Shown here: positions 4,890 to 17,725 of the stretch, one piece after another
Numbering within the stretch: position 1 is the first letter of the stretch
How the letters are laid out: each line of letters starts with the position of its first letter
Assembly: GCA_016215705.1 (NCBI GenBank)
Contig: JACRIR010000104.1
Span: forward strand, 1 to 26,580
From: Candidatus Poribacteria bacterium
GTDB taxonomy: Bacteria > Abyssobacteria > SURF-5
Length of the DNA stretch: 26,580 nucleotides
Direction of reading: 5' to 3'
Notes under the pieces: generated by a model
The model's input: the letters and a program-made list of their open reading frames with translations, nothing else
Database searches by the model: none
What the model was told of the DNA's origin: nothing
Made by a program: the position numbers and the translations under genes

Positions 4890-6122
4890 CTAACCAACCA
4901 GCGTAGAGAGTTTGAATATCGGGAGAAACAGAGCAAGCACCATCCCGCCGACGACGATACCAAGGAAGAGAATCAGCATAGGCTCAATCAGCGAAGTGAG
5001 ACTGGAAATGGTCGCCTCCACTTGCTGATCATAGAATTCGGCTATTTTCCCGAGCAACTCGTCAAGCGCGCCCGTTCTTTCGCCGACGTCGATCATGCGT
5101 GTAACCATAAGCGGGAATGCGCCGCTGCGGGAGAGGGGCTCAGAGATCGTGGCGCCGGCCTTGATACTCGACTGAGACCCGTTCACGGCGCGCGCAATCA
5201 CTTCGTTTCCGATAGTGCGCTCCACAATCTCGAGCGCTGCAAGCACCGGAACGCCGCTCCGCGTGAGTGTAGACAGAGTTCGCGCAAACCGGGCCACTGC
5301 AACTTTTCTGAATAGCGGCCCGAAAACCGGCAGCCTGAGCTTGACAGTATCGAACTGCATTTTGCCCAACGGCGTGGAAACATAATATCGCACGCCGACA
5401 AATATTGCAACAAGAATCCCGATAACAATCAGAATGTAACTGCGGAGGATGTTGCTTAGCTTGATAAGCATGAGCGTCGGCGCAGGAAGCTGTCCTCCAA
5501 GGCCTTCGAATATCTCCTGGAACTTCGGCACGATGAATACAAGCAGGCCGACAGCAATCGCTACGACGATAACCAATGCGATGATGGGATATGTCATCGC
5601 GGACTTGATCTCGCGCTTGAGTTTTTCGGTGGCCTCGAGGTACTCCGCAAGCTGGATGAGAATGCCGTCCAGGTTGCCGCTCGCCTCGCCCGCGCGCACC
5701 ATGCTGGCGTAAAGGTCGGTGAAAACCTTTGGGTGCTTCTTCAACGCGTCCGAGAACGTAAGTCCTGCCTCGATATCCTGTCCTATCTGGGTCAGAACCC
5801 GCTTAAAATTGGCGCTCTCGGTTTGTTCGATCATGATGTCAATTCCCTGAAGCAGCGGCAGACCGGCATTGACCATGGTCGCCAGCGAACGCGTGAAGAG
5901 GATCATCTCTTCCGATTTGATTTTCTTGCCGCGTCTCAGACCTTTTCCCGCCAAGGCTTTCTTTGTGTCCTGGGCGCGCGCCGAGTGGGTGTCGGATACG
6001 GATGTGGGAATGAGACCCTTATCCCTCAGTTTCTGAAGCATATCCTGTTTGTTGTCTGCGTCCATCCTGCCGGACGCGCTGTTACCTGACTTGTCACGAG
6101 CCGTGTACTGGAACGTTGGCAT
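4890..6122 (-). CDS. pilC: Type IV pilus inner-membrane platform protein PilC
   Basis: 410 residues from the ATG at 6122, chosen because GGAGGG lies about eight bases upstream and the protein then begins MPTFQYTARD, the usual PilC start. Two T2SSF (GspF) domains are seen: the first with RSLATMVNAGLPLLQGI and a Gly-Glu-x-Ser-Gly-x-Leu stretch, the second with RTLSTLTRSGVPVLAALE and GERTGALDELL. Three membrane segments lie near residues 180-202, 230-250 and 378-403. PilC is the platform that couples the PilB and PilT ATPases to pilin assembly. It starts 19 bp after the pilR stop and closes the pilT-pilS-pilR-pilC cluster. Length and motifs are normal. Confidence 0.95.
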   Translation of the reverse strand: MPTFQYTARDKSGNSASGRMDADNKQDMLQKLRDKGLIPTSVSDTHSARAQDTKKALAGKGLRRGKKIKSEEMILFTRSLATMVNAGLPLLQGIDIMIEQTESANFKRVLTQIGQDIEAGLTFSDALKKHPKVFTDLYASMVRAGEASGNLDGILIQLAEYLEATEKLKREIKSAMTYPIIALVIVVAIAVGLLVFIVPKFQEIFEGLGGQLPAPTLMLIKLSNILRSYILIVIGILVAIFVGVRYYVSTPLGKMQFDTVKLRLPVFGPLFRKVAVARFARTLSTLTRSGVPVLAALEIVERTIGNEVIARAVNGSQSSIKAGATISEPLSRSGAFPLMVTRMIDVGERTGALDELLGKIAEFYDQQVEATISSLTSLIEPMLILFLGIVVGGMVLALFLPIFKLSTLVG

Positions 6123-6141
6123 TGCTGATCCCTCCGTTTGA

Positions 6142-7551
6142 CTAATCGTCCCTTTCGGGTTCGTTGCCATCCTTTGATTTCATGTTGTATTTTTCCAGCT
6201 TGTACCTGAGCGACCTCGGCGAGAGCCTCAGCAATCGCGCCGCCCGGGTCTGGGAATTGCTGACTCTGTTCATAGCTTGCTTGATCAGCGAGCGTTCAAA
6301 GGCCCCGACGTGTTCGTCCAGGTCAATGCCGTCCGCGGAGACCTCCAGCGCGGCGGCCGGCTCCTCCGCGGTCAGGTCGAACAATTTCCTGGGCAGATCG
6401 GCCGACTCGATCATGTCGCCGTCGCATAATGCCGCTGCCCGCTCAATGACGTTCTCCAGCTCCCGCACATTGCCGGGCCAGCGGTACTGCTCGAGCATCT
6501 GTTCGGTCTCTTTGGAAAGCGCCACCTGTCTGCCCGATCGCTCCCAGAACTTGTTCAGGAAGTGTCTGGCCAACAGTTGAACGTCCTCCCGCCTTTCACG
6601 AAGAGAGGGAGCATATATGGGAATCACGTTCAGACGGTAGTAAAAATCCTCACGGAATCTCCCGTCAGACACCATTTTCTCGAGGTCCTTGTTGGTAGCC
6701 GAGATGAGGCGAACGTCCACCGAGAAATCCGTAGCGCTGCCGACGGGCCGTATTTTCATCTCGTCGAGGACTCGCAACAGCTTCACCTGGAGCGCCATAC
6801 TCGTCTCGCCTATTTCATCGAGAAACAGACTGCCCCCATCCGCCACCTTGAAGAGACCGTCCTTATGAGAGACAGCGCCCGTAAACGCTCCCTTGACGTG
6901 CCCAAACAGCTCACTCTCGAGCAGATTCTCAGGAATGCCGCCGCAGTTTATTGCGATGAATGGTTTCTCGGCGCGAGAACTGCAATTGTGTATGGCTTTG
7001 GCAACGAGTTCCTTGCCCGTCCCGCTCTCGCCGAGTATCAGCACGGTGCTCGACAGGCACGCCACCTTCCGTATCATGTTCTTCATGTCGTTTATTGCTC
7101 GACTATTGCCTACAAGGTCATCGAGCCTGCCGAGCTTCTTGAGCTCGAGCCGGAGAGCCCTGTTCTCGACACGCAGCTTTTTGCTTTCAAGCGCCTTCTG
7201 AACGACCAGCTTGAGCTCGTCGTTCTTGAACGGTTTCACCAGATAGTCAAAAGCTCCCAGGCGCATCGCCTCGACGGCGGAATCGACGGAACTGTGGGCC
7301 GTGATAACTATCGAAGAAATGAACCCATCGGCATTCTGGGCGTGTCGGAGCACCTTCGTGCCGCCATCCCTGTCATCATTCAGCCAGAGGTCAGTGATGA
7401 GCAGGTCCCAAAGGCCATTGCGCAGTTTCTCGGCAGCCTCTTCGTGGGAGCCGACTCCCGTGACATCATACCCCTGTTTTTCAAGCATTATCGTCAGCAA
7501 CTCACGCATGCTCGGTTCATCTTCGACAATCAGGATTCGGAACTTGCCCAT
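6142..7551 (-). CDS. pilR: Sigma-54-dependent response regulator PilR
   Basis: 469 residues. Receiver domain at the N-terminus with acidic pair Glu10/Asp11, phospho-acceptor Asp54 and the conserved Lys in YLVKPF. The AAA+ domain has Walker A GESGTGKE (Lys180), an intact GAFTGA loop in the context HVKGAFTGA, Walker B SLFLDEIG and the arginine-finger region FREDFYYRLNV. The Fis-type helix-turn-helix is at the C-terminus (SNSQTRAARLLRLSPRSLRYKL). In Pseudomonas and Geobacter, PilR with PilS activates sigma-54 transcription of pilin genes. Here it lies three bases after pilS and the operon begins at a consensus sigma-54 promoter, so autoregulation is likely. Assignment as PilR rather than a general NtrC rests on the pil context. 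Confidence 0.92.
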   Translation of the reverse strand: MGKFRILIVEDEPSMRELLTIMLEKQGYDVTGVGSHEEAAEKLRNGLWDLLITDLWLNDDRDGGTKVLRHAQNADGFISSIVITAHSSVDSAVEAMRLGAFDYLVKPFKNDELKLVVQKALESKKLRVENRALRLELKKLGRLDDLVGNSRAINDMKNMIRKVACLSSTVLILGESGTGKELVAKAIHNCSSRAEKPFIAINCGGIPENLLESELFGHVKGAFTGAVSHKDGLFKVADGGSLFLDEIGETSMALQVKLLRVLDEMKIRPVGSATDFSVDVRLISATNKDLEKMVSDGRFREDFYYRLNVIPIYAPSLRERREDVQLLARHFLNKFWERSGRQVALSKETEQMLEQYRWPGNVRELENVIERAAALCDGDMIESADLPRKLFDLTAEEPAAALEVSADGIDLDEHVGAFERSLIKQAMNRVSNSQTRAARLLRLSPRSLRYKLEKYNMKSKDGNEPERDD

Positions 7552-7554
7552 AGT

Positions 7555-9192
7555 CTAAACTCGACTCTCTCTCGGGAGCACCATACGTACCGTGGTCCCC
7601 TTTCCCTCATTGCTTTCGATATCAATTGAACCGCCGTGAGAAGTGACTATCCTGTGGACTATGGACATCCCCAGACCAATCCCGTGCGGTTTAGTCGTAT
7701 AGAAAGGATCGAACATTTTACGAGCCTCCTCCGGAGAAACTCCGTTCCCCTCGTCCTCGACAAGGATACCCACGTGGCCGACTGATTCACCATCTTCTCC
7801 CGCTCCGATTCTCAGTTCGCCGCCCCCGGGCATTGCTTCGACCCCATTGCGGATAACGTTCAGAACTGCCTGCCTGATCTGTCCGCGGTCTGCCATTATG
7901 CTTCCCAGGTCCTCCGGCCATTCTCTGACGATGCGCACTTTGTCGTTGTAGATGAGACATCGCTCCGCCACCTGCGCGACCTCATCGAGTAACTGACTCA
8001 CGGCGAATCGTTCTTTACCGCGCGGATGCGGCCGAACGAATCCGAGGAAATCCGACACGATTTTCTCCAGTTGATCGGTTTCATGTATCGCTATCTTCAT
8101 CAACTGAGCGTCTGTCCCCTCGAGCCTGGAGTTCTCCGACAGTTCCTGGATCGCGCCGCGAATGGAAGCGGCAGGATTCCGAATTTCGTGCGCAAGGACG
8201 GCCGACATCTCGCCTATGGCCGCCAGTCGGTCGGCGCATCGGAGTTCCTCCTCCATGCGTTTGAGCTCGGTGAGGTCAGTGAAACTCGCCACCGCTCCCG
8301 TGACATTCCCTACGCCGTCACGCAGAAGCGACACCGTAATGCCGACCGGAATCTCTTTGCCGTCCCCTCGGGTCACGATAATCTCTTTGCTCTTGCACTC
8401 TCTTTGTTCGCTCACCGATTCTTCAAGGGGATTCGATCGGCCGGCCGGAGTCATAAAGACCGCCGAGATATGTTTGCCAAGTCCTTCGGACACTGATCGC
8501 CGCAGCAAGCCGGCTCCGGCGGGATTGAGGAGCGTAACAATGCAATTTCGATCTATGCCTATGAACCCGCTCGAAAGACTGTTCAGAATGTTCCGCTGGA
8601 ACATTTGAAGCAGTCCGACCCGTCGGGAAAGGTAGCCCGCCAGGAATACGGCCAGATAAAAAGCGAAAACGTTCATTCCGATGTACGCCCACAACTCCTC
8701 GAGTGTCATCATGGCTTTATGCCATCTGAACGGAGACGCGGCCACGATGGACAAGTCACGCTCGAGGAAGATCGCGAGAAGAAAGAACGCCGAACATACG
8801 GTTGCCATGAAAAGACTTTGCTTAAACGAAAGGAGGATGCTTGCGGAAAGTATAATGGCGATATACAGACAATTGAATGCGCTCTCACTGCCTCCGGTCA
8901 GCATTACGACTGCGCTCGTCAGCAGCAGATCACCGCACACAAATAAGAGTGGAAGGTATGCTCCGGGCTGATACTCCTCCGTTATCCAAAAAGCGACGAC
9001 CACGGATTCGACAAAAGCGAGAACAAGAATGGAGTAGAGGCAGACCGTGCTCGGGTCGAGCGCGGAGGCGTTCTTCATGTGAAGCACCGCGCACAGAAGC
9101 GCTATGAGGGAGATGATCAACGCCCTCGCCAGGGTAAACCGTTTCAGAATAGACGCGCTTCGTTCGACGTATACCTTGCCGTTGTCGCTCAT
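7555..9192 (-). CDS. pilS: PilS-like sensor histidine kinase
   Basis: 545 residues. About six hydrophobic segments fill residues 20-190, as in PilS. A PAS domain follows (NILNSLSSGFIGIDRN to the FTDLTELKRMEEEL boundary, about 205-320). The dimerisation/phospho-acceptor helix reads GEMSAVLAHEIRNP with His335. The ATPase domain has the N-box NVIRNGVEAMP, G1 box DEGNGV, F-box FDPFYTTK and G2 box GIGLGMSI. In Pseudomonas, PilS senses pilin in the membrane and controls PilR; the same pairing is expected because pilR starts three bases downstream. The ATG at 9192 has an AGAGGA-type site upstream and starts 21 bp after the pilT stop. Confidence 0.9.
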   Translation of the reverse strand: MSDNGKVYVERSASILKRFTLARALIISLIALLCAVLHMKNASALDPSTVCLYSILVLAFVESVVVAFWITEEYQPGAYLPLLFVCGDLLLTSAVVMLTGGSESAFNCLYIAIILSASILLSFKQSLFMATVCSAFFLLAIFLERDLSIVAASPFRWHKAMMTLEELWAYIGMNVFAFYLAVFLAGYLSRRVGLLQMFQRNILNSLSSGFIGIDRNCIVTLLNPAGAGLLRRSVSEGLGKHISAVFMTPAGRSNPLEESVSEQRECKSKEIIVTRGDGKEIPVGITVSLLRDGVGNVTGAVASFTDLTELKRMEEELRCADRLAAIGEMSAVLAHEIRNPAASIRGAIQELSENSRLEGTDAQLMKIAIHETDQLEKIVSDFLGFVRPHPRGKERFAVSQLLDEVAQVAERCLIYNDKVRIVREWPEDLGSIMADRGQIRQAVLNVIRNGVEAMPGGGELRIGAGEDGESVGHVGILVEDEGNGVSPEEARKMFDPFYTTKPHGIGLGMSIVHRIVTSHGGSIDIESNEGKGTTVRMVLPRESRV

Positions 9193-9213: not shown

Positions 9214-10278
9214 TCAGAACCCTTTCCCCATCAATCGGAGAAGCTCTTCCTGGTCCATGCTGTTTTCAAGCGCATGTTCATACGTGATTTGGCCGCTCTT
9301 GTAGAGCCTGTAGAGACCCAGGTTCATCGTTTGCATTCCGAGAGCGCCTCCGGTGCTGATTGCGGAATATATCTGGTGGAGTTTGTCCTCCCGAATAAGG
9401 CTTCGTATGGCAGGCGTCGCAACCATGATCTCGAGAGCCAGGACGCGCCCATTAGAGTTCTTTCGAGGAAGAAGTTTCTGCACAAGCACACCCTCCAGAA
9501 CGAATGAAAGCTGCGTTCGAACCTGCAGTTGCTGATGCGGCGGAAACACGTCCACCATTCGGTTAATGGTCTGGGTGGCGTCATTTGAATGGAGAGTGGC
9601 GAACACCAGATGTCCGGTTTCAGCGACCGTCAAGGCCACCATGATCGTCTCGAGGTCCCGCATTTCGCCTATCATTATTACGTCGGGGTCCTGTCTGAGA
9701 ATATGTTTGAGCGCGGCCGCAAATGAATGAGTATCCGCAAAAACCTCTCGCTGGTTGATAACTGACAACTTGTGAGCATGCAGATACTCAATCGGATCCT
9801 CGATTGTGACGATGTGGCAACGTCTCTCGTTATTAATCTTGTTCATGAGCGCGGCAAGCGTAGTGCTCTTTCCGCTGCCGGTGGGACCGCATACGAGCAC
9901 CAGCCCTTGCGGCCGGTCTGCCAGCTCACGCACGCATTTGGGCAAGCCGAGGTCTTCGAAATTGAGTATCTCGTAGGGAATCGACCGAATTGCAGCAACC
10001 ACGGAGCCGCGGTCAAGGTAAAGGTTGACGCGGAATCTGCTCAATCCCTTTATGCCGAAGGACATATCGAGTTCCTTGTCCTTCTCGAACTCCTTTATCT
10101 GTTGTTCGGTCAGAATGCTGTAAGAGAGGCTTTTTGTCATCTCAGGAGTGAGGGTCGCCGTATCCAGAGCGTACAGTTCTCCGTCAATGCGAAGCTGGGG
10201 CGGTATGCCCACCGCAAGATGGAGGTCAGAAGCGCCGCTCTCGATCATTTGACGGCATAACTCTTCGAGTTGCATCAC
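9214..10278 (-). CDS. pilT: Type IV pilus retraction ATPase PilT
   Basis: 354 residues, a normal length. The N-terminal PAS-like half has the PilT start pattern (SGASDLHLAVGIPPQLRIDG). Walker A is GPTGSGKST (Lys137 counting from the GTG), the Asp box IVTIEDPIEYLH, Walker B DVIMIGEMRD and the His box TGHLVFATLHSND. The C-terminal signature AIRSLIRE is close to the AIRNLIRE retraction motif, which separates PilT from PilU and PilB. The start is GTG at 10278 or ATG at 10275; GGGAG lies about 10 bases before the GTG. It is first in the cluster behind a sigma-54 promoter at 10398-10413, with a leader of roughly 110 nt. PilT depolymerises the pilus, giving twitching motility and DNA uptake. Confidence 0.96.
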   Translation of the reverse strand: MMQLEELCRQMIESGASDLHLAVGIPPQLRIDGELYALDTATLTPEMTKSLSYSILTEQQIKEFEKDKELDMSFGIKGLSRFRVNLYLDRGSVVAAIRSIPYEILNFEDLGLPKCVRELADRPQGLVLVCGPTGSGKSTTLAALMNKINNERRCHIVTIEDPIEYLHAHKLSVINQREVFADTHSFAAALKHILRQDPDVIMIGEMRDLETIMVALTVAETGHLVFATLHSNDATQTINRMVDVFPPHQQLQVRTQLSFVLEGVLVQKLLPRKNSNGRVLALEIMVATPAIRSLIREDKLHQIYSAISTGGALGMQTMNLGLYRLYKSGQITYEHALENSMDQEELLRLMGKGF

Positions 10279-10762: not shown

Positions 10763-12478
10763 TCAATCCGGAGCCGTAACGCGAAGGGCTTCTTCTAAAG
10801 TTGTAAGCCCCGCCGTCACTTTTCTCAACCCGACCTGACGCAAGGTGACCATGCCGTTCTCGACTGCGACGCGTTTGATCTCGCCGGAAGGAGCAGACGC
10901 CATTATCAAGTCCTGAACGTTTTCTTTCACGCGGAGCACTTCCAGGAGCGCAAGCCGCCCTCGATAACCCGTCTCGCCGCAACGCCCGCACCCTCGTCCT
11001 TTCCAGAGGGAAACTTTCTCTCCGGGCACGCTGTTGAACTGGGCCCTCTTGAGCACCGGGTCAGGGACACTGTAAGACTCCTTGCAGTCCGGACAGATTC
11101 TGCGCACCAGTCGCTGAGCGGCGGCCATGAGCATTGAAGAGGCAATCAGGAATGGCTCCATTCCCATGTCGATGAGGCGCGTGATAGCGCCGGGAGCGTC
11201 ATTAGTGTGAAGCGTGCTGAGCACGAGGTGACCTGTGAGCGCGGCCTTGATGGCGATGTCGGCGGTTTCCTCATCGCGGATTTCACCGACCATTACCACG
11301 TCGGGGTCTTGTCGCAATATGGACCTCAAACCCGAAGAGAACGTGAGTCCGACCTCCGGCTTTACCTGCACCTGATTGACGCCATAGAGTTCATACTCTA
11401 CGGGGTCTTCGACGGTCACAATATTTATGTCCGGATTATTCAGCATGTGCAGCGCTGAATAGAGCGTGGTTGTCTTGCCGCTGCCGGTCGGACCGGTCAC
11501 AAGAATGATCCCATTCGGCCTTGCCAGACTGTCCCGGAAATCATCGAGTGGCTGCTGCTCGAAATTAAGTTTGTCAAGGTCGAGTTGCAGGGAACCTTTG
11601 TCAAGAATTCGAAGAACGACCTTCTCGCCGTAGTAGGTCGGCAGAGTCGACACGCGGAAATCTATCTCGCGACGCTCGAACTTGATGCGGAACCGCCCAT
11701 CCTGAGGAACGCGCCGCTCGGCTATGTCCAACTCCGACACGACCTTGATTCGGGAAACGACCGCCGCCTGAAGAGACTTGGGCGGAGGCTGTACTTCCCG
11801 TAACATGCCGTCTATTCGGTAGCGAAGCCGAACATCCTTCTCGAAGGGCTCTATGTGGATATCGCTGGCGCCCTGCTTGATGGCGTTGAGAAGAATAAGG
11901 TTGACCAGGCGTATCACGGGCGCCTGCTCGACCTCCTTCTTCAGGCTGCTTATATCGATCTCTTCCTTGCCTTCAACAACGGTGACGGTGTCAGTCTGCG
12001 CGTCTCTCAGGATGTCTGCAAAGTCATCTCCTTCGCCTTCCTTGCCTCCGTAGTACCGGTCGATTGTCTTCTTTATCTCGGAATCCAGGCTCACAACGGT
12101 TTCGACTTCATACCCTGTCAGCATTCTGACGTCATCTATCGCCACGATGTTCAACGGATCGGACATCGCGATGGTCAGAGACTTGCCTGTTTTCGCGACC
12201 GGAATGAGGTGATAGCGCCGCGCGATTCCTTCGGGAATCTCCGCAAGCACTTCAGTTGGGATGTCATAGCTCTCAACGCGCAGATGCGGGATGCCCAGTT
12301 GCTCGCTGAGGGTGATGACGATGTCCTCCTCGCTGACCAGCCCGGAATTGATAAGAATGGCGACCAGCGGCTGGCCGGTCCGCCTCTGTTCGGACAACGC
12401 CTGTTGGAGTTGTTCGTGCGCCAGCAAATGCTCTTCGATGAGGATGTCACCCAGTCTCTTCTTGAGGGTTTCGACCAT
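10763..12478 (-). CDS. pilB: Type IV pilus extension ATPase PilB
   Basis: 571 residues, normal for PilB. The N-terminal MshEN (T2SSE_N) domain, residues about 5-150, begins KRLGDILIEE and has the QLQQALSEQ helix; MshEN domains of MshE and several PilBs bind cyclic-di-GMP. The first half keeps the RLGxxL motif while the second half (GQPLVAIL) departs from it, so binding is not certain. The catalytic part has ASDIHIEP, Walker A GPTGSGKTT (Lys335), Asp box VTVEDPVEY, Walker B VVMVGEIRD, His box TGHLVLSTLHTND and a tetracysteine zinc site (CPDC...CGRC). It powers pilin polymerisation on PilC. The ATG at 12478 has GGGG about 11 bases upstream. It lies 157 bp after the MshEN-DnaA gene, probably in the same transcript. 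Confidence 0.95.
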   Translation of the reverse strand: MVETLKKRLGDILIEEHLLAHEQLQQALSEQRRTGQPLVAILINSGLVSEEDIVITLSEQLGIPHLRVESYDIPTEVLAEIPEGIARRYHLIPVAKTGKSLTIAMSDPLNIVAIDDVRMLTGYEVETVVSLDSEIKKTIDRYYGGKEGEGDDFADILRDAQTDTVTVVEGKEEIDISSLKKEVEQAPVIRLVNLILLNAIKQGASDIHIEPFEKDVRLRYRIDGMLREVQPPPKSLQAAVVSRIKVVSELDIAERRVPQDGRFRIKFERREIDFRVSTLPTYYGEKVVLRILDKGSLQLDLDKLNFEQQPLDDFRDSLARPNGIILVTGPTGSGKTTTLYSALHMLNNPDINIVTVEDPVEYELYGVNQVQVKPEVGLTFSSGLRSILRQDPDVVMVGEIRDEETADIAIKAALTGHLVLSTLHTNDAPGAITRLIDMGMEPFLIASSMLMAAAQRLVRRICPDCKESYSVPDPVLKRAQFNSVPGEKVSLWKGRGCGRCGETGYRGRLALLEVLRVKENVQDLIMASAPSGEIKRVAVENGMVTLRQVGLRKVTAGLTTLEEALRVTAPD

Positions 12479-12635: not shown

Positions 12636-13973
12636 CTACGCCTTGGCCGTCTTGAACATGTGCTTCAGTATTTCCTGCGCCAGTTCTACCGTTATCTCAT
12701 GTCCCACAAGAGAGGAGTAAGCCAGCAGTTTCTTCAATGCTCCCTCCAACTCACGAATGTTCGACGGAATTGACTTGGCAAGCAGATCGAGCACGTCCTC
12801 GGGAACAGTCGCCCCCGCGGCGCCGGTCCGCTGGCGGAGGATTCCGAGCCGAGTCTGAAAATCGGGTTCCTCCACACAGGCGACAACTCCGCCTTCAAAC
12901 CTCGATATGAGACGCTTCTCGAGACCCTCCAACCTTTTCGGAGAGACGTCGCTGACCAGAATGATGTGCTTTTTATTGCCGTAAATGAGATTGAAGACAT
13001 TGAAGAACTCTTCCTGCGCGCGGGTCCTTCCAGCCAGAAATTGGATATCATCCAGAATGAGCATATCGACGTTGGCGTAACGGTCTCTGAACTCCTTCAT
13101 TTTTTCGTGCTCAACCGCTTCGATCATTTCGTCGATGAATTGGCTTGCCGGCGCATAGACCACCAGCGCGTCATTGTTTGAACGGACTACCTCGTTTCCG
13201 ATTGCATTCGACAGGTGCGTTTTCCCCAAGCCGGTATTGCCATAAATGAAGAAGGGGTTGTACTCGGAGCCCGGAGATTCCGCGATTGACCGCGCCAGCG
13301 CATACGTAAACGAGTTGGCTTGCGCCACCACGAAAGAATCGAAGGTGAACCTTTCTATCAATCCACCCGGGCAATGGATACTCTTCTCCTTGTCCGGGTC
13401 CGGCGGCCTCGGCCCCTCTTCCGTTGGCGCGACGGTCTGAGCTGCCGGTTGCTTCGGCTCGGCTGCGACGGTCGCGACTTCAGCGGGAGCGCTTTCTTGC
13501 GGGTGCGCCTTGCGATCCTGCGCGCCGTAAATCCTGTCATATAAGTCTCTGAAATCGACCCATGAGCAGAGTATGGGCTTTATGCGAAGGCTGACGGTTT
13601 TCTTGATCTTTTCGAGCGCCTCTACGTCGAGCGGGTTCACCATTGCGATCGTGAGGAGTGTCCCGAGCTTGTCAATTGCCAGCAGCTTATACTCTCGGCA
13701 TATCGCAGCAGGGACAAGTTCCGCAACGTCCTTCGCTATCTGAAAATTCGAAAGCTTGAGGTGAGGAATGCGGCATTGGCGGACGAGGAACCCGACAAGC
13801 TCCTCCTCGGTAATATACTTCAGCCGCACAAGGATTTCCCCGAGGAATTGGCCCGCATGTTTTTGTTCCCGAAGCGCTTCCTCAAGTTGTTCGCGGGTTA
13901 ACACCTCTTCCCGCACCAGCAACTCACCCAGCTTCTTACTGGCCCCTTTTACGCTATGTATATCATCCATCAT
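12636..13973 (-). CDS. MshEN domain fused to a DnaA-type AAA+ ATPase lacking the DNA-binding domain
   Basis: 445 residues of unusual architecture. Residues about 12-150 are an MshEN domain like that of PilB (KKLGELLVREEVLTREQL, then FLGEILV, then a MVNPLDVEAL half). A proline/alanine-rich linker follows (about 152-198). Residues about 205-435 are DnaA domain III: FTFDSFVVAQAN, Walker A GNTGLGKTH (Lys251), the initiator-specific segment MKEFRDRYANVDML, Walker B ILDDIQFLAG, arginine-finger region RLISRFEGG and box VIII SNIRELEGAL. The protein stops right after this; DnaA domain IV (the DHTTV helix-turn-helix) is absent and is not found in the following 157 bp. It is therefore not the replication initiator. 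It is upstream of pilB, and MshEN domains can bind cyclic-di-GMP, so a regulatory partner of the pilus machine is a reasonable inference. Start ATG 13973 (or 13970) has only a weak GGA upstream. Confidence 0.9.
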   Translation of the reverse strand: MMDDIHSVKGASKKLGELLVREEVLTREQLEEALREQKHAGQFLGEILVRLKYITEEELVGFLVRQCRIPHLKLSNFQIAKDVAELVPAAICREYKLLAIDKLGTLLTIAMVNPLDVEALEKIKKTVSLRIKPILCSWVDFRDLYDRIYGAQDRKAHPQESAPAEVATVAAEPKQPAAQTVAPTEEGPRPPDPDKEKSIHCPGGLIERFTFDSFVVAQANSFTYALARSIAESPGSEYNPFFIYGNTGLGKTHLSNAIGNEVVRSNNDALVVYAPASQFIDEMIEAVEHEKMKEFRDRYANVDMLILDDIQFLAGRTRAQEEFFNVFNLIYGNKKHIILVSDVSPKRLEGLEKRLISRFEGGVVACVEEPDFQTRLGILRQRTGAAGATVPEDVLDLLAKSIPSNIRELEGALKKLLAYSSLVGHEITVELAQEILKHMFKTAKA

Positions 13974-14092: not shown

Positions 14093-14122
14093 TTGACACA
14101 AGTCAGTGATTCCGAATATAAT
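14093..14122 (+). promoter_or_regulatory. Sigma-70 consensus promoter for the hybrid kinase operon
   Basis: TTGACA at 14093-14098 and TATAAT at 14117-14122, both perfect, separated by 18 bp. Transcription would start near 14130, leaving a leader of about 165 nt before the kinase ATG. Confidence 0.78.
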
Positions 14123-14204: not shown

Positions 14205-14230
14205 TGCAAGGAGTTTATAAGTTCCTTGCA
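14205..14230 (+). promoter_or_regulatory. Leader hairpin TGCAAGGA-N10-TCCTTGCA
   Basis: Perfect 8-bp arms with a 10-nt loop in the untranslated leader. The 5' arm contains AAGGAG, an SD-like word that would be sequestered when paired. It is about 65 nt upstream of the chosen ATG, so a role in translation control is speculative. Confidence 0.45.
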
Positions 14231-14294
14231 GGACCGGATTCAATCTGAGCCCGATTCCCGAACACATTCGCACTGCCCGATTATCCGGGCGTTT

Positions 14295-16304
14295 ATGGTG
14301 CCTTCGATGAAAAGTCCTTTCGCCAAGATTGTCCCGTCTCGACTCATGGTGGTCGGCCTGGGAACCACCCTGTTTGTGCTTTGCATCGCAACCATTCTCC
14401 TTCTTCTTCCAGGCTTCATCGGTCGCGAAAGGCTTGTTGACCGAATGGTGGAAAGCCTCCAGTCCATGAGCGCCCTCCAGCCGGATGACACATCGTTCAA
14501 AGACCTTGACCACGTGCTATTTACAATTACGCAGTCCAACAGAGCCAACAGAAATATCTCCTACTTGCGATTCGTAGACCTCGATGACGGCTCCATTTTT
14601 AGCTATGACGAAAAGGGAATTCGCAGCGCCGTCGGCCGGGCTGAGCCCGATGTGTGGGCTGACCTCATGAAGAAAGGCCGTGCCCTTAAGGTCGATGCCG
14701 ACCGGTATGAAGCATTTCGTATAGTTTCACCCGAACACCCAATTGCCATAAACCTTGGCATCGACCCCGAAGTTGCCCATGAAATCGAGTCACAGAGAAG
14801 GCTTTCAATGATAATTGGTAGCATAATCCTTGCCACTGGAATAGGGATTCTGATAATGATTTGGCAGACACGTCAGATAGAGGAAGCCAAGGGGGAGCTT
14901 GAACTCGTGCTCGCGAGCACATCGGAACCCATTCTCATGGTAGACAATTATTGCCGGTTGGTGTTCGCAAACGAACCCGCCCGCACGCTTTTAGGACACC
15001 CTAAAGGGAAGAAATTCCGGAATCGACCTCTCTTATCCTTGGTCCAGAATGCGTCGAACCGGGAGTTCTTTGAGCGACTGCTGGCCAACGAGGGGTCTGA
15101 ACTTGACGAACTGGAGACAACCCTCGCCGGCTACTCTGAAAAAACAACATTCCGGGCCGGAGTCCTTGATGTCAAGACTTCCGTCGGCCGCACGTTGGGC
15201 AAACTGCTCGTGCTCAGGGACGTAACCCTCGAGAAGAGACTCGAGGATAAGAAAGTCTCACAAACCATACACGAATTGAAGGGCATGCTGGGAGAAGTGA
15301 AAGGATTCATCCGGCACGCCCTCGACACGATGGATGGGGACGCGCAAAGGGAGCAACGCGCCTTCCTGAACATCTGCCTCGAGAAGCTCGAAAGATCTTA
15401 TGACACCGTTGCCGCCATGGTAAGATCTATTGTGAGCGCCTTCAAGCCGCAGTCGCTTGAGCTTAGGCTTCGCCACGTCGACCTCGGCGAGATAATCAGA
15501 TTCAACGTGAACGATTTCGAATCATCCCTCGAGAAGGAAAAAGTTAGGGGCCTTGTAATTAAAGTGAATCTTCCTGAGAAGTTGCCGACGGTTTGCTGCG
15601 ACTCGAACGCCATCTCGCGCGTTCTCGTAAACCTTTTCCAGAATGCCTTCCAGCATTGCCCGCAAGGGGCCATCGAAGTGACTGCGGAGGAGAAGGGCGA
15701 AACAGTTCAGGTGCAGGTGAAGGATGTCGGCTGCGGTATCCCGCCCGGCAACCTGGACATAATCTTCGAGCCTCATGTGAGCTTCAGAAAGGGAGGAACG
15801 GGCCTGGGTCTTTCGATATGCCGCGACTTCATAAAGGCGCACGGCGGAGAAATATGGGCCCATTCCGACGGAAAGGACAAGGGTAGCACATTCTGCTTTA
15901 GCCTCCCCAAATCCAGACCGGTTATCCTCGCATCCGATTCCGGACTTGCAGCCAGATTGGATGCGTACTGCAAGAAGAGCGGTTATTTCCCCATCATTCT
16001 TGATGATTTCCTGGCAGCCACACGGAAAGTGGCCGAGATAAACCCGAACGCCATCCTCCTCGACGTAGACATGCAAGATACTATCTCGGGGATATCACTC
16101 GCATACCGGCTGAAGAAGACGGCGGACACGGCGAAGATCCCTATAATCGGCCTCACATCAAGCGTCTCGGACGCGCAAGCGGAATTGGATCGGTATGAAG
16201 GAATAAACTTAGAGGCATTCTTACAGAAAGACTTCAAGGAAGAGGACCTGGGAGCGGCCATTAAAACTATTGAGGCATACTGGTACCTGGCACAAAGCTC
16301 CTGA
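14295..16304 (+). CDS. Hybrid sensor histidine kinase with PAS and C-terminal receiver-like domain
   Basis: 669 residues from the ATG at 14295; the ATG at 14307 is equally possible because neither has a strong ribosome-binding site. Membrane segment 1 (about residues 15-40), an extracytoplasmic sensor region of about 115 residues, membrane segment 2 (about 163-185), then a short coiled coil and a PAS domain (LELVLASTSEPILMVDNYCR). The phospho-acceptor helix is TIHELKGMLGEVKGF with His326, lacking the usual proline. The ATPase domain has NLFQNAFQH, DVGCGIP, and GGTGLGLSI. The C-terminal domain (from about residue 537) resembles a receiver: it keeps the Asp of LLDVDMQD, GLTSS and QKDF, but the acidic pair reads ASDS, so metal binding may be weakened. 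It is followed 59 bp later by an NtrC-like regulator, its likely partner. Confidence 0.85.
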   Translation: MVPSMKSPFAKIVPSRLMVVGLGTTLFVLCIATILLLLPGFIGRERLVDRMVESLQSMSALQPDDTSFKDLDHVLFTITQSNRANRNISYLRFVDLDDGSIFSYDEKGIRSAVGRAEPDVWADLMKKGRALKVDADRYEAFRIVSPEHPIAINLGIDPEVAHEIESQRRLSMIIGSIILATGIGILIMIWQTRQIEEAKGELELVLASTSEPILMVDNYCRLVFANEPARTLLGHPKGKKFRNRPLLSLVQNASNREFFERLLANEGSELDELETTLAGYSEKTTFRAGVLDVKTSVGRTLGKLLVLRDVTLEKRLEDKKVSQTIHELKGMLGEVKGFIRHALDTMDGDAQREQRAFLNICLEKLERSYDTVAAMVRSIVSAFKPQSLELRLRHVDLGEIIRFNVNDFESSLEKEKVRGLVIKVNLPEKLPTVCCDSNAISRVLVNLFQNAFQHCPQGAIEVTAEEKGETVQVQVKDVGCGIPPGNLDIIFEPHVSFRKGGTGLGLSICRDFIKAHGGEIWAHSDGKDKGSTFCFSLPKSRPVILASDSGLAARLDAYCKKSGYFPIILDDFLAATRKVAEINPNAILLDVDMQDTISGISLAYRLKKTADTAKIPIIGLTSSVSDAQAELDRYEGINLEAFLQKDFKEEDLGAAIKTIEAYWYLAQSS

Positions 16305-16363: not shown

Positions 16364-17725
16364 TTGCTCGACATAGGAAGCCGCATACTGATCATCGACG
16401 ACGAATTGGAGACGGTCCAAAGCATCATAAACTACCTCAAGGAGGAAGGCTTCGATGTGACCGTGGCCTACGACCGGCTCGAAGCCATCCGTCTCCTGAG
16501 AAAGACAAACTACGACATCGTGTTCCTGGACTGGGTGCTCGAGAGAGAGATAGGACTCGAGGTGTTGAATGCGCTCCGATGCGAGTTTCCCAGGCTTGAT
16601 GTCGTCGTGTTGAGTGAAGCCGCTTCTCTCGAGATGGCGGTGCAGGCGATCAGCCACGGCGCATACGACATAATCAAGAAGGCCCGTGAAGACGGAACCA
16701 ACCAGTGGAAAGTGCCTTCGCGCTTGCCCATCGTGCTACATAATCTTCTGGCCCGCAGGCAAGAACGTGAGCTCGTTTCGCAGCAACAGGATGAGAGATA
16801 CCATATGGTCGGTGTCAGCGAGGCCATGCAAAAACTGCGGGAGGAGATAGCCCTGGTCGGGCCAAGCGATTATACGGTTCTTATCTGCGGCGAAAGCGGA
16901 ACCGGAAAGGAACTGGTCGCCCACAATATCCACCGCCATAGCGCCCGACAGGAAGCCCCATTTGTCCCGGTCAACTGCAGCGCCCTCACGTCCACTCTCC
17001 TTGAATCGGAGCTTTTCGGTATCGACAGACGCGTGGCCACCCAGGTGGACCAGCGCAAAGGCAAGTTCGAACTCGCTCATGGAGGCACTCTCTTTCTTGA
17101 CGAAATAGGCGACCTCAGCTACGAGGCTCAGGCAAAGCTCCTCCGTGTTCTCGAGGACAAAACCATTACCCGCGTCGGTGGACAAAAGGAGATCAAAGTA
17201 GACGTAAGAGTGATTGCAGCCACCAACCGCGACATGGATGCCATGACAAGGAGCGGCGCTTTCAGGGAAGACTTGCGGTACCGCCTCACGTACCGGATCA
17301 CTTGTCCCCCCCTCCGTGAGCGCAAAGAGGATATTGATCCTCTTGTTCTCTATCTGCTCGAGCGAGAATGCCGAAAGCTTCATAAGAAACGCATCTCCAT
17401 CGACCCCGATGCCCTGGACGTGCTGAAATCGTACTCCTGGCCGGGAAACGTCCGGCAGCTTAAGAACGTTCTGCAATGGACCGCCGTAAGAGTGAACAAT
17501 GTTATCACGGCAGAACTCCTTCGGAAAAACGAGGACTTGCGCTCTGCAGCCCCATCAACGCAAAACTATGCGGAGATGACACTTAAAGAGGCCCTTCGCG
17601 TATTTGAGCGCGATTTGATCACTCGCGTGCTGGGTGAAAGCGGATCGAACCGAGAAGCTGCCCAGAAACTTGGTATGGATGAAGGAAATTTTTCAAAAAA
17701 GCTCAAAGAATTCGGCCTGCGATGA
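16364..17725 (+). CDS. NtrC-family sigma-54 activator with altered GAFTGA loop
   Basis: 453 residues starting at a TTG (16364); GGGGAGG and AGAGGAG precede it. Receiver domain with Asp12/Asp13 and phospho-acceptor Asp56 (VFLDWVLE). AAA+ domain with Walker A GESGTGKE (Lys182), Walker B TLFLDEIG, FREDLRYRL and PPLRERKEDI. The sigma-54-contacting loop normally reading GAFTGA is RVATQV (residues 223-228) and is one residue shorter; a GVATGV variant is known to me from other activators, but here both glycines are lost. A Fis-type helix-turn-helix ends the protein (SNREAAQKLGMDEGNFSKKLKEFG). Either it activates sigma-54 through a variant loop or it works as a DNA-binding regulator without sigma-54 remodelling. 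A sigma-54 promoter lies downstream at 17951. Confidence 0.88.
   Translation: MLDIGSRILIIDDELETVQSIINYLKEEGFDVTVAYDRLEAIRLLRKTNYDIVFLDWVLEREIGLEVLNALRCEFPRLDVVVLSEAASLEMAVQAISHGAYDIIKKAREDGTNQWKVPSRLPIVLHNLLARRQERELVSQQQDERYHMVGVSEAMQKLREEIALVGPSDYTVLICGESGTGKELVAHNIHRHSARQEAPFVPVNCSALTSTLLESELFGIDRRVATQVDQRKGKFELAHGGTLFLDEIGDLSYEAQAKLLRVLEDKTITRVGGQKEIKVDVRVIAATNRDMDAMTRSGAFREDLRYRLTYRITCPPLRERKEDIDPLVLYLLERECRKLHKKRISIDPDALDVLKSYSWPGNVRQLKNVLQWTAVRVNNVITAELLRKNEDLRSAAPSTQNYAEMTLKEALRVFERDLITRVLGESGSNREAAQKLGMDEGNFSKKLKEFGLR

Follow-up and report, generated by a model that had tools for sequence, protein, structure and literature searches.

An MshEN domain fused to a DnaA-type AAA+ module in proteins linked to type IV pilus genes

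The stretch of DNA analysed here, 26,580 nucleotides in length and termed the window, carries on its minus strand a gene (positions 12636-13973, ATG start at 13973) whose 445 aa product is confirmed to consist of an MshEN domain, a linker and a complete DnaA domain III, without the DnaA domain IV. Proteins of this architecture recur in at least five deep bacterial lineages, and their link to type IV pilus genes is well supported. Our favoured reading, to which we give slightly better than even credence, is that the protein serves the type IV pilus base as an ATP-switched AAA+ factor, in which a DnaA-type core is combined with an MshEN docking domain. The first-pass annotation of this DNA had the coordinates of the gene right, and the reading frame proved to lie on the minus strand.

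Architecture, recurrence and ancestry

The MshEN domain occupies approximately residues 10-155 (13509-13946, minus strand). Two profiles describe it, and both score above their cut-offs: NF053729, the c-di-GMP-binding MshE motif of NCBIfam (residues 14-66, 61.3 bits, cut-off 38), and the Pfam MshEN model PF05157 (residues 68-154, 62.6 bits, cut-off 23.1). Both 24-residue c-di-GMP half-motifs are present. In an AlphaFold model of the whole protein (mean pLDDT 75.5), residues 5-158 match the GSPII-A/MshEN domain of Thermus PilF (9g1w, Z 18.9). A linker rich in Pro, Ala and Glu follows (approximately residues 156-203; 13365-13508, minus strand), which is predicted to be disordered and has pLDDT values below 50 over residues 155-202. 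The DnaA domain III AAA+ module extends over approximately residues 204-440 (12654-13364, minus strand). It is matched by Bac_DnaA (PF00308) with 194 bits over residues 207-364, and residues 203-440 of the model match domain III of Bacillus subtilis DnaA (8btg_C, Z 28.1). Alignment places the Walker A motif GNTGLGKTH at residues 245-253 (13215-13241, minus strand) and the Walker B motif LILDD at residues 305-309 (13047-13061, minus strand), and the initiator-specific motif appears in the model as two inserted helices (residues 276-288 and 292-300).

The stop codon comes directly after the lid. TIGR00362 aligns residues 176-442 with its positions 75-341 of 437 (321.9 bits, below the cut-off of 343.9), and since the alignment ends at model position 341, the protein stops where domain IV would begin. 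A Pfam scan of the window protein found no match to Bac_DnaA_C (PF08299, domain IV) or to the T2SSE ATPase domain (PF00437), and domain IV was absent from all 20 fusion members scanned. The DnaA domain III fold is also present in the most divergent branch of the fusions. The architecture proposed in the first-pass annotation was borne out, both in the N-terminal MshEN domain, which the profile searches do recover, and in the missing domain IV.

A frameshift or a chimaera as the source of this architecture was excluded by the presence of the same fusion at the equivalent position in two other genera. Orthologues (L059:4286-5593 and L060:9899-11305) are 65-73% identical, and the fusion gene stands before pilB in 3/3 genomes (three genera) of the window's phylum. 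The gap between the fusion gene and pilB is 157 bp in the window and 20 and 31 bp in the two other genera, which leaves no room for a lost domain IV.

For wider searches we used a fusion-specific profile that comprised MshEN and the first part of domain III. The profile was cut at Walker B because plain DnaA and plain PilB then score low, and with it fusions scored at least 271 bits and everything else at most 178 bits. A whole-protein profile was rejected as a fusion detector, being swamped by plain DnaA. Among 386 genomes sampled across bacteria, the truncated profile revealed fusions in six families, and all profile searches together yielded 35 fusion proteins in 32 genomes from five phyla (3/3, 3/3, 2/2, 3/3 and 21/147 genomes with a fusion per phylum). 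The largest of these phyla, with its small genomes and numerous families, might be Omnitrophota, which is no more than a guess. A scan of named genomes with the window protein returned only plain DnaA relatives (30-45% identity), and no record in the plasmid and phage collections covered 80% of the window protein. These counts refute the objection, raised when the gene was first noted, that the fusion might exist in this one contig only. The recurrence in 32 genomes likewise refutes the reading of the protein as a truncated DnaA paralogue or a functionless assembly chimaera, which has the odd architecture and nothing else in its favour. In addition, the ATPase motifs are intact and synteny is kept.

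The ancestry of the DnaA half also argues against a truncated paralogue. In a tree of 65 DnaA domain III sequences, canonical DnaAs and a few close derivatives form one side of a supported branch (96/93), and the other side holds all MshEN fusions together with receiver-DnaA, TPR-DnaA and double-DnaA proteins. Grouping of the window fusion with the DnaA of its own phylum was rejected (p = 0.026). With these results, we regard the probability of a truncated paralogue or chimaera as negligible. A single clade of all fusions, judged by their DnaA halves, was also rejected (p = 0.010), with receiver-DnaA and TPR-DnaA proteins nested among them. In a comparison with ten type IV pilus ATPases from the window's phylum and from genome G150, a weakly supported branch (88/86) sets the MshEN halves of the fusions apart. 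These trees are most simply read as an old family of non-replicative DnaA-type proteins that underwent domain swaps. The fusions may go back to one old fusion followed by later domain swaps, or to several fusions.

Further DnaA-type proteins were observed in these genomes. G150, G288 and G386 each have 9 to 13 DnaA-domain matches, many of them proteins of 390-640 aa that carry a receiver domain and a DnaA domain III without domain IV (L155:3597-5402, L156, L157, L159-L168 and L173), as if DnaA served response regulators as an output module. TPR-DnaA proteins of about 1750-2130 aa (L083:7958-14356 in G014, others in G162 and G301) combine long TPR arrays with a C-terminal DnaA domain III, and the N-terminus of the G014 protein resembles, by eye, a CHC2 primase zinc finger. 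Proteins of 610-710 aa that have DnaA domain III but lack domain IV (L169:3233-5362, L171:4014-6158 and L123:6932-8767) are encoded near pilT: two f116 genomes have such a gene two positions downstream of it, and in G239 a related gene lies no more than about 6 kb from it. The window's own genome encodes a short DnaA of 352 aa with domains III and IV but not I-II (L056:16186-17244, contig C166), whose gene closes a gsp/pil-type operon, directly behind two pilB-like genes; G002 has a similar gene. The same genome also encodes an 1830 aa coiled-coil protein whose two ends carry degenerate DnaA-type domains (L057:6286-11778, contig C255), and G001 and G002 have long frames similar to it.

Gene neighbourhoods of the fusion

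In the window, the fusion gene is followed on the same strand by pilB, pilT, pilS, pilR and pilC, in this order. The pilB gene (10763-12478, minus strand) encodes a T4aP extension ATPase with an MshEN domain of its own (TIGR02538, 705 bits, cut-off 675.65), and pilT (9214-10278, minus strand) encodes the retraction ATPase (TIGR01420, 482 bits). Next come genes for a PilS-like sensor kinase with a PilS-type transmembrane domain, HisKA and HATPase_c (7555-9192, minus strand), a PilR-like sigma-54 response regulator (6142-7551, minus strand) and the platform protein PilC with two copies of T2SSF (4890-6170, minus strand). On the other side, a divergent hybrid histidine kinase gene adjoins the fusion gene (14226-16304, plus strand; by comparison with orthologues its true start is probably 14307). 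The gene for its partner, an NtrC-type response regulator, follows (16364-17725, plus strand), and each of the three genomes of the window's phylum has both beside the fusion. The space separating the fusion gene from the divergent kinase gene holds a perfect sigma-70 promoter (14093-14122, plus strand; TTGACA, 18 bp, TATAAT; chance occurrence about 0.01 per window), which is also present in G001 and G002. No convincing sigma-54 site was found upstream of the fusion gene.

The connection to the pilus machine, originally suggested by the single neighbour pilB, is borne out by synteny in three phyla (3/3, two loci and 21/21). In a second phylum, tandem MshEN-DnaA genes of G150 come directly after pilD (prepilin peptidase) and are followed by pilB-pilT. 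The order after pilD is equal in G288, where the contig end falls inside the last fusion gene. In the largest group, 21/21 fusion genes precede a same-strand pilM-pilN fusion gene at a distance of -11 to +86 bp, with a stop/start overlap between the two genes in many of these loci, and pilO, AMIN/PilP and secretin genes then follow wherever the locus sequence reaches that far. The gene cluster of the G529 fusion includes pilB, pilT, pilC, a pilin gene and pilD.

With each tandem taken as a single locus, 26 loci sit right among pilus genes, against seven that do not. Of these seven, six have no adjoining pilus gene (contig C283 of G150, G386, G130 and three f116 genomes). In the seventh, G267, pilB and pilC lie about 6 kb from the fusion on the other strand, with dprA and topA in between. 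The three f116 genomes have Roadblock/LC7, Arf/Rag-like GTPase and two DUF4388 genes near the fusion. Two genes that adjoin fusions were observed to encode MshEN in other settings: L228:8513-9085 (G130) encodes MshEN only (190 aa), and L082:5246-6556 (G150) encodes MshEN with a C-terminal part unmatched by Pfam (436 aa).

Conserved residues and proposed function

K251, D308/D309 and D342 of the window protein align with K178, D235/D236 and D269 of E. coli DnaA, and R354, R358 and R407 align with R281, R285 and R334. K251 belongs to Walker A, D308/D309 to Walker B, D342 to sensor-1, R354 and R358 to box VII and R407 to sensor-2. Conservation was counted over 34 aligned fusions. No substitution occurs at the Walker A Lys or at either Walker B Asp (34/34), and the sensor-2 position is Arg or Lys in every sequence (34/34). 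The arginine finger (R285 position) persists in 21/34 fusions, including the whole branch of the window, and hence hydrolysis activated in trans cannot be a universal feature.

Domain III of DnaA assembles into helical filaments, and the fusion retains the helix-forming insert. These features would suit a polar scaffold or polarity factor, whose ATP-dependent DnaA-core filaments would label the pole and draw the pilus machine together via MshEN instead of working on the motors. The Roadblock/LC7 and Arf/Rag-like GTPase genes of the f116 genomes, which resemble MglB/MglA, and the two DUF4388 genes near the fusion point in the same direction. However, conservation of the arginine finger and of box VII residues breaks down in parts of the family, and the close coupling to pilM-pilN points to stoichiometry with the pilus base more than to a landmark role. 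We therefore consider a polar scaffold doubtful.

The single-stranded-DNA residues V211 and R245 of E. coli DnaA align with I284 and R318 of the window protein. The R245 position is Arg in 11/34 fusions, and the V211 position varies freely and is often Lys, Glu or Asn; both residues are kept in the window's branch and lost in most others. By this pattern, DNA binding is no shared constraint on the fusion family, and the function common to its members is one that is ATP-dependent and pilus-linked. A DNA factor, whose domain III would bind single-stranded DNA and aid DNA uptake via the pilus (transformation) or recombination, could draw on the match at I284 and R318 and on the dprA and topA genes between the G267 fusion and pilB/pilC. 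The absence of domain IV, the divergence of the two positions across the family and the pilus structure genes that flank the fusion in other lineages render it unlikely. For the same reasons of residue divergence and neighbouring genes, the action on DNA or replication suggested in the first-pass annotation is unsupported.

A different tie to replication would be an Hda-like regulator, whose AAA+ face would contact ATP-DnaA and couple pilus or c-di-GMP state to replication initiation. The DnaA-type interface residues R354, R358 and R407 are present in the window protein, and Hda, which is also without domain IV, is among the nearest folds to the model. However, the match to TIGR03420 (89 bits) is far under the cut-off of 194.8, many homologues have lost the arginine finger, and the surrounding genes belong to the pilus. 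Furthermore, Hda carries an N-terminal clamp-binding motif, and by inspection there is none in residues 1-13 of the window protein (MMDDIHSVKGASK). Such a regulator appears very unlikely.

The contact residues named for MshEN are R9, L10, G11, L25, L29 and Q32 in the first half and R38, L39, G40, L54, L58 and Q61 in the second, with loop glycines at positions 18 and 47 (PMC5013675). In the window protein, 10/12 named contacts are identical, R9 and R38 being replaced by K14 and F43, and the loop glycines are replaced by E23 (G18) and K52 (G47). Of the 34 aligned fusions, 9 retain G11, 10 retain G40 and 5 retain Q61; the contacts are kept in the window's branch and lost in most others. In the large pilMN-linked group, G40 is Glu in 21/21, and the second glutamine and most other contacts are lost. 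By the reasoning that explains the non-binding of XpsE, the proteins of this group probably do not bind c-di-GMP. The loss of the key glycines and the second glutamine in the largest group means that c-di-GMP control cannot be the shared function. Control of the kind predicted from the window gene would be at most a trait of some branches: the prediction finds support in the window's branch only, in which most contacts are present, and probably fails for the largest group.

For the favoured role as a factor of the pilus base, we infer docking on PilM or PilB, oligomerisation and a loader or exchange role. The MshEN half would set the protein at the cytoplasmic socket used by PilB, with PilM (PilM-PilN) or PilB's own N-domain ring as its likeliest docking partner. 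ATP binding by the DnaA half would produce an oligomer, either an open spiral or a ring, and this oligomer would help to position, retain or swap the hexameric motors PilB and PilT. Docking may be gated by c-di-GMP in the branch of the window. Because the fusion has the same domain as the traffic ATPases, and its gene lies beside pilM-pilN or pilB, docking at the same place is plausible. T2SS GspE homologues contact PilM homologues via MshEN (PMC6325625), and a review places PilB in the PilM socket (PMC11656802). Thermus PilMN stimulates PilF through a GSPII domain, but each of PilF's three GSPII domains proved dispensable for PilMN binding (PMC6325625), and so MshEN need not be the sole contact.

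The loader role is drawn by analogy with DnaC and DnaI, related AAA+ proteins that load a hexameric ring ATPase (PMC8213410, PMC3791466). A specific loader role for PilB/PilT is a tentative suggestion, and we hold a role at the pilus base to be much more likely. A broader reading, possible but speculative, is that pili of several phyla contain an unrecognised second ATPase class, descended from DnaA and docked at the PilM socket, that loads, opens or exchanges PilB/PilT, much as replication uses DnaA-clade AAA+ proteins to load the DnaB ring. The fusion would then be part of an old non-replicative DnaA-type radiation, along with the receiver-DnaA, TPR-DnaA and double-DnaA proteins.

Relation to known systems

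The domains of the fusion are known, whereas for their combination and its place in pilus operons we found no published description in the open-access literature; a review of PilB cofactors names no DnaA-type factor (PMC11656802). For the exchange of PilB and PilT at one socket, and for motor assembly there, a conserved second ATPase coupled to pilM-pilN offers a concrete candidate. Pilus machines seem to have taken over a motor from DNA replication. If true, the non-replicative history of the replication initiator's AAA+ core is older and broader than Hda and the helicase loaders suggest, with the DnaA core serving pilus and two-component systems as a general switch module. Annotation pipelines may label such genes dnaA, which would yield misleading counts of replication initiators.

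Compared with PilB, MshE and GspE, the fusion has in common the N-terminal MshEN (GSPII) domain, the type IV pilus gene neighbourhood and probably the docking site. The motor is different, being a T2SSE secretion ATPase in those proteins and a DnaA-type AAA+ module in the fusion. MshEN serves as a portable regulatory module both here and in its fusions to REC, HD-GYP, CheA, CheX, cyclase, kinase and glycosyltransferase partners; the main text of the paper that lists these partners does not name a DnaA fusion (PMC5013675).

With Hda, DnaC, DnaI and IstB the fusion shares a DnaA-clade AAA+ module that acts without an HTH domain, although its sequence is closer to DnaA than to any of these. We know of no described member of that group that carries MshEN or sits in pilus operons. 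Like DnaA itself, the fusion has a complete domain III with Walker A/B, sensor 1/2, the initiator-specific insert and box VII. It differs from DnaA in that domains I-II are replaced by MshEN and the linker, domain IV is missing, the box VII Trp (RFGWGL) is Gly, and domain III falls outside the canonical DnaA clade. The window gene is also not beside dnaN, whereas a canonical dnaA-dnaN pair is located on contig C89.
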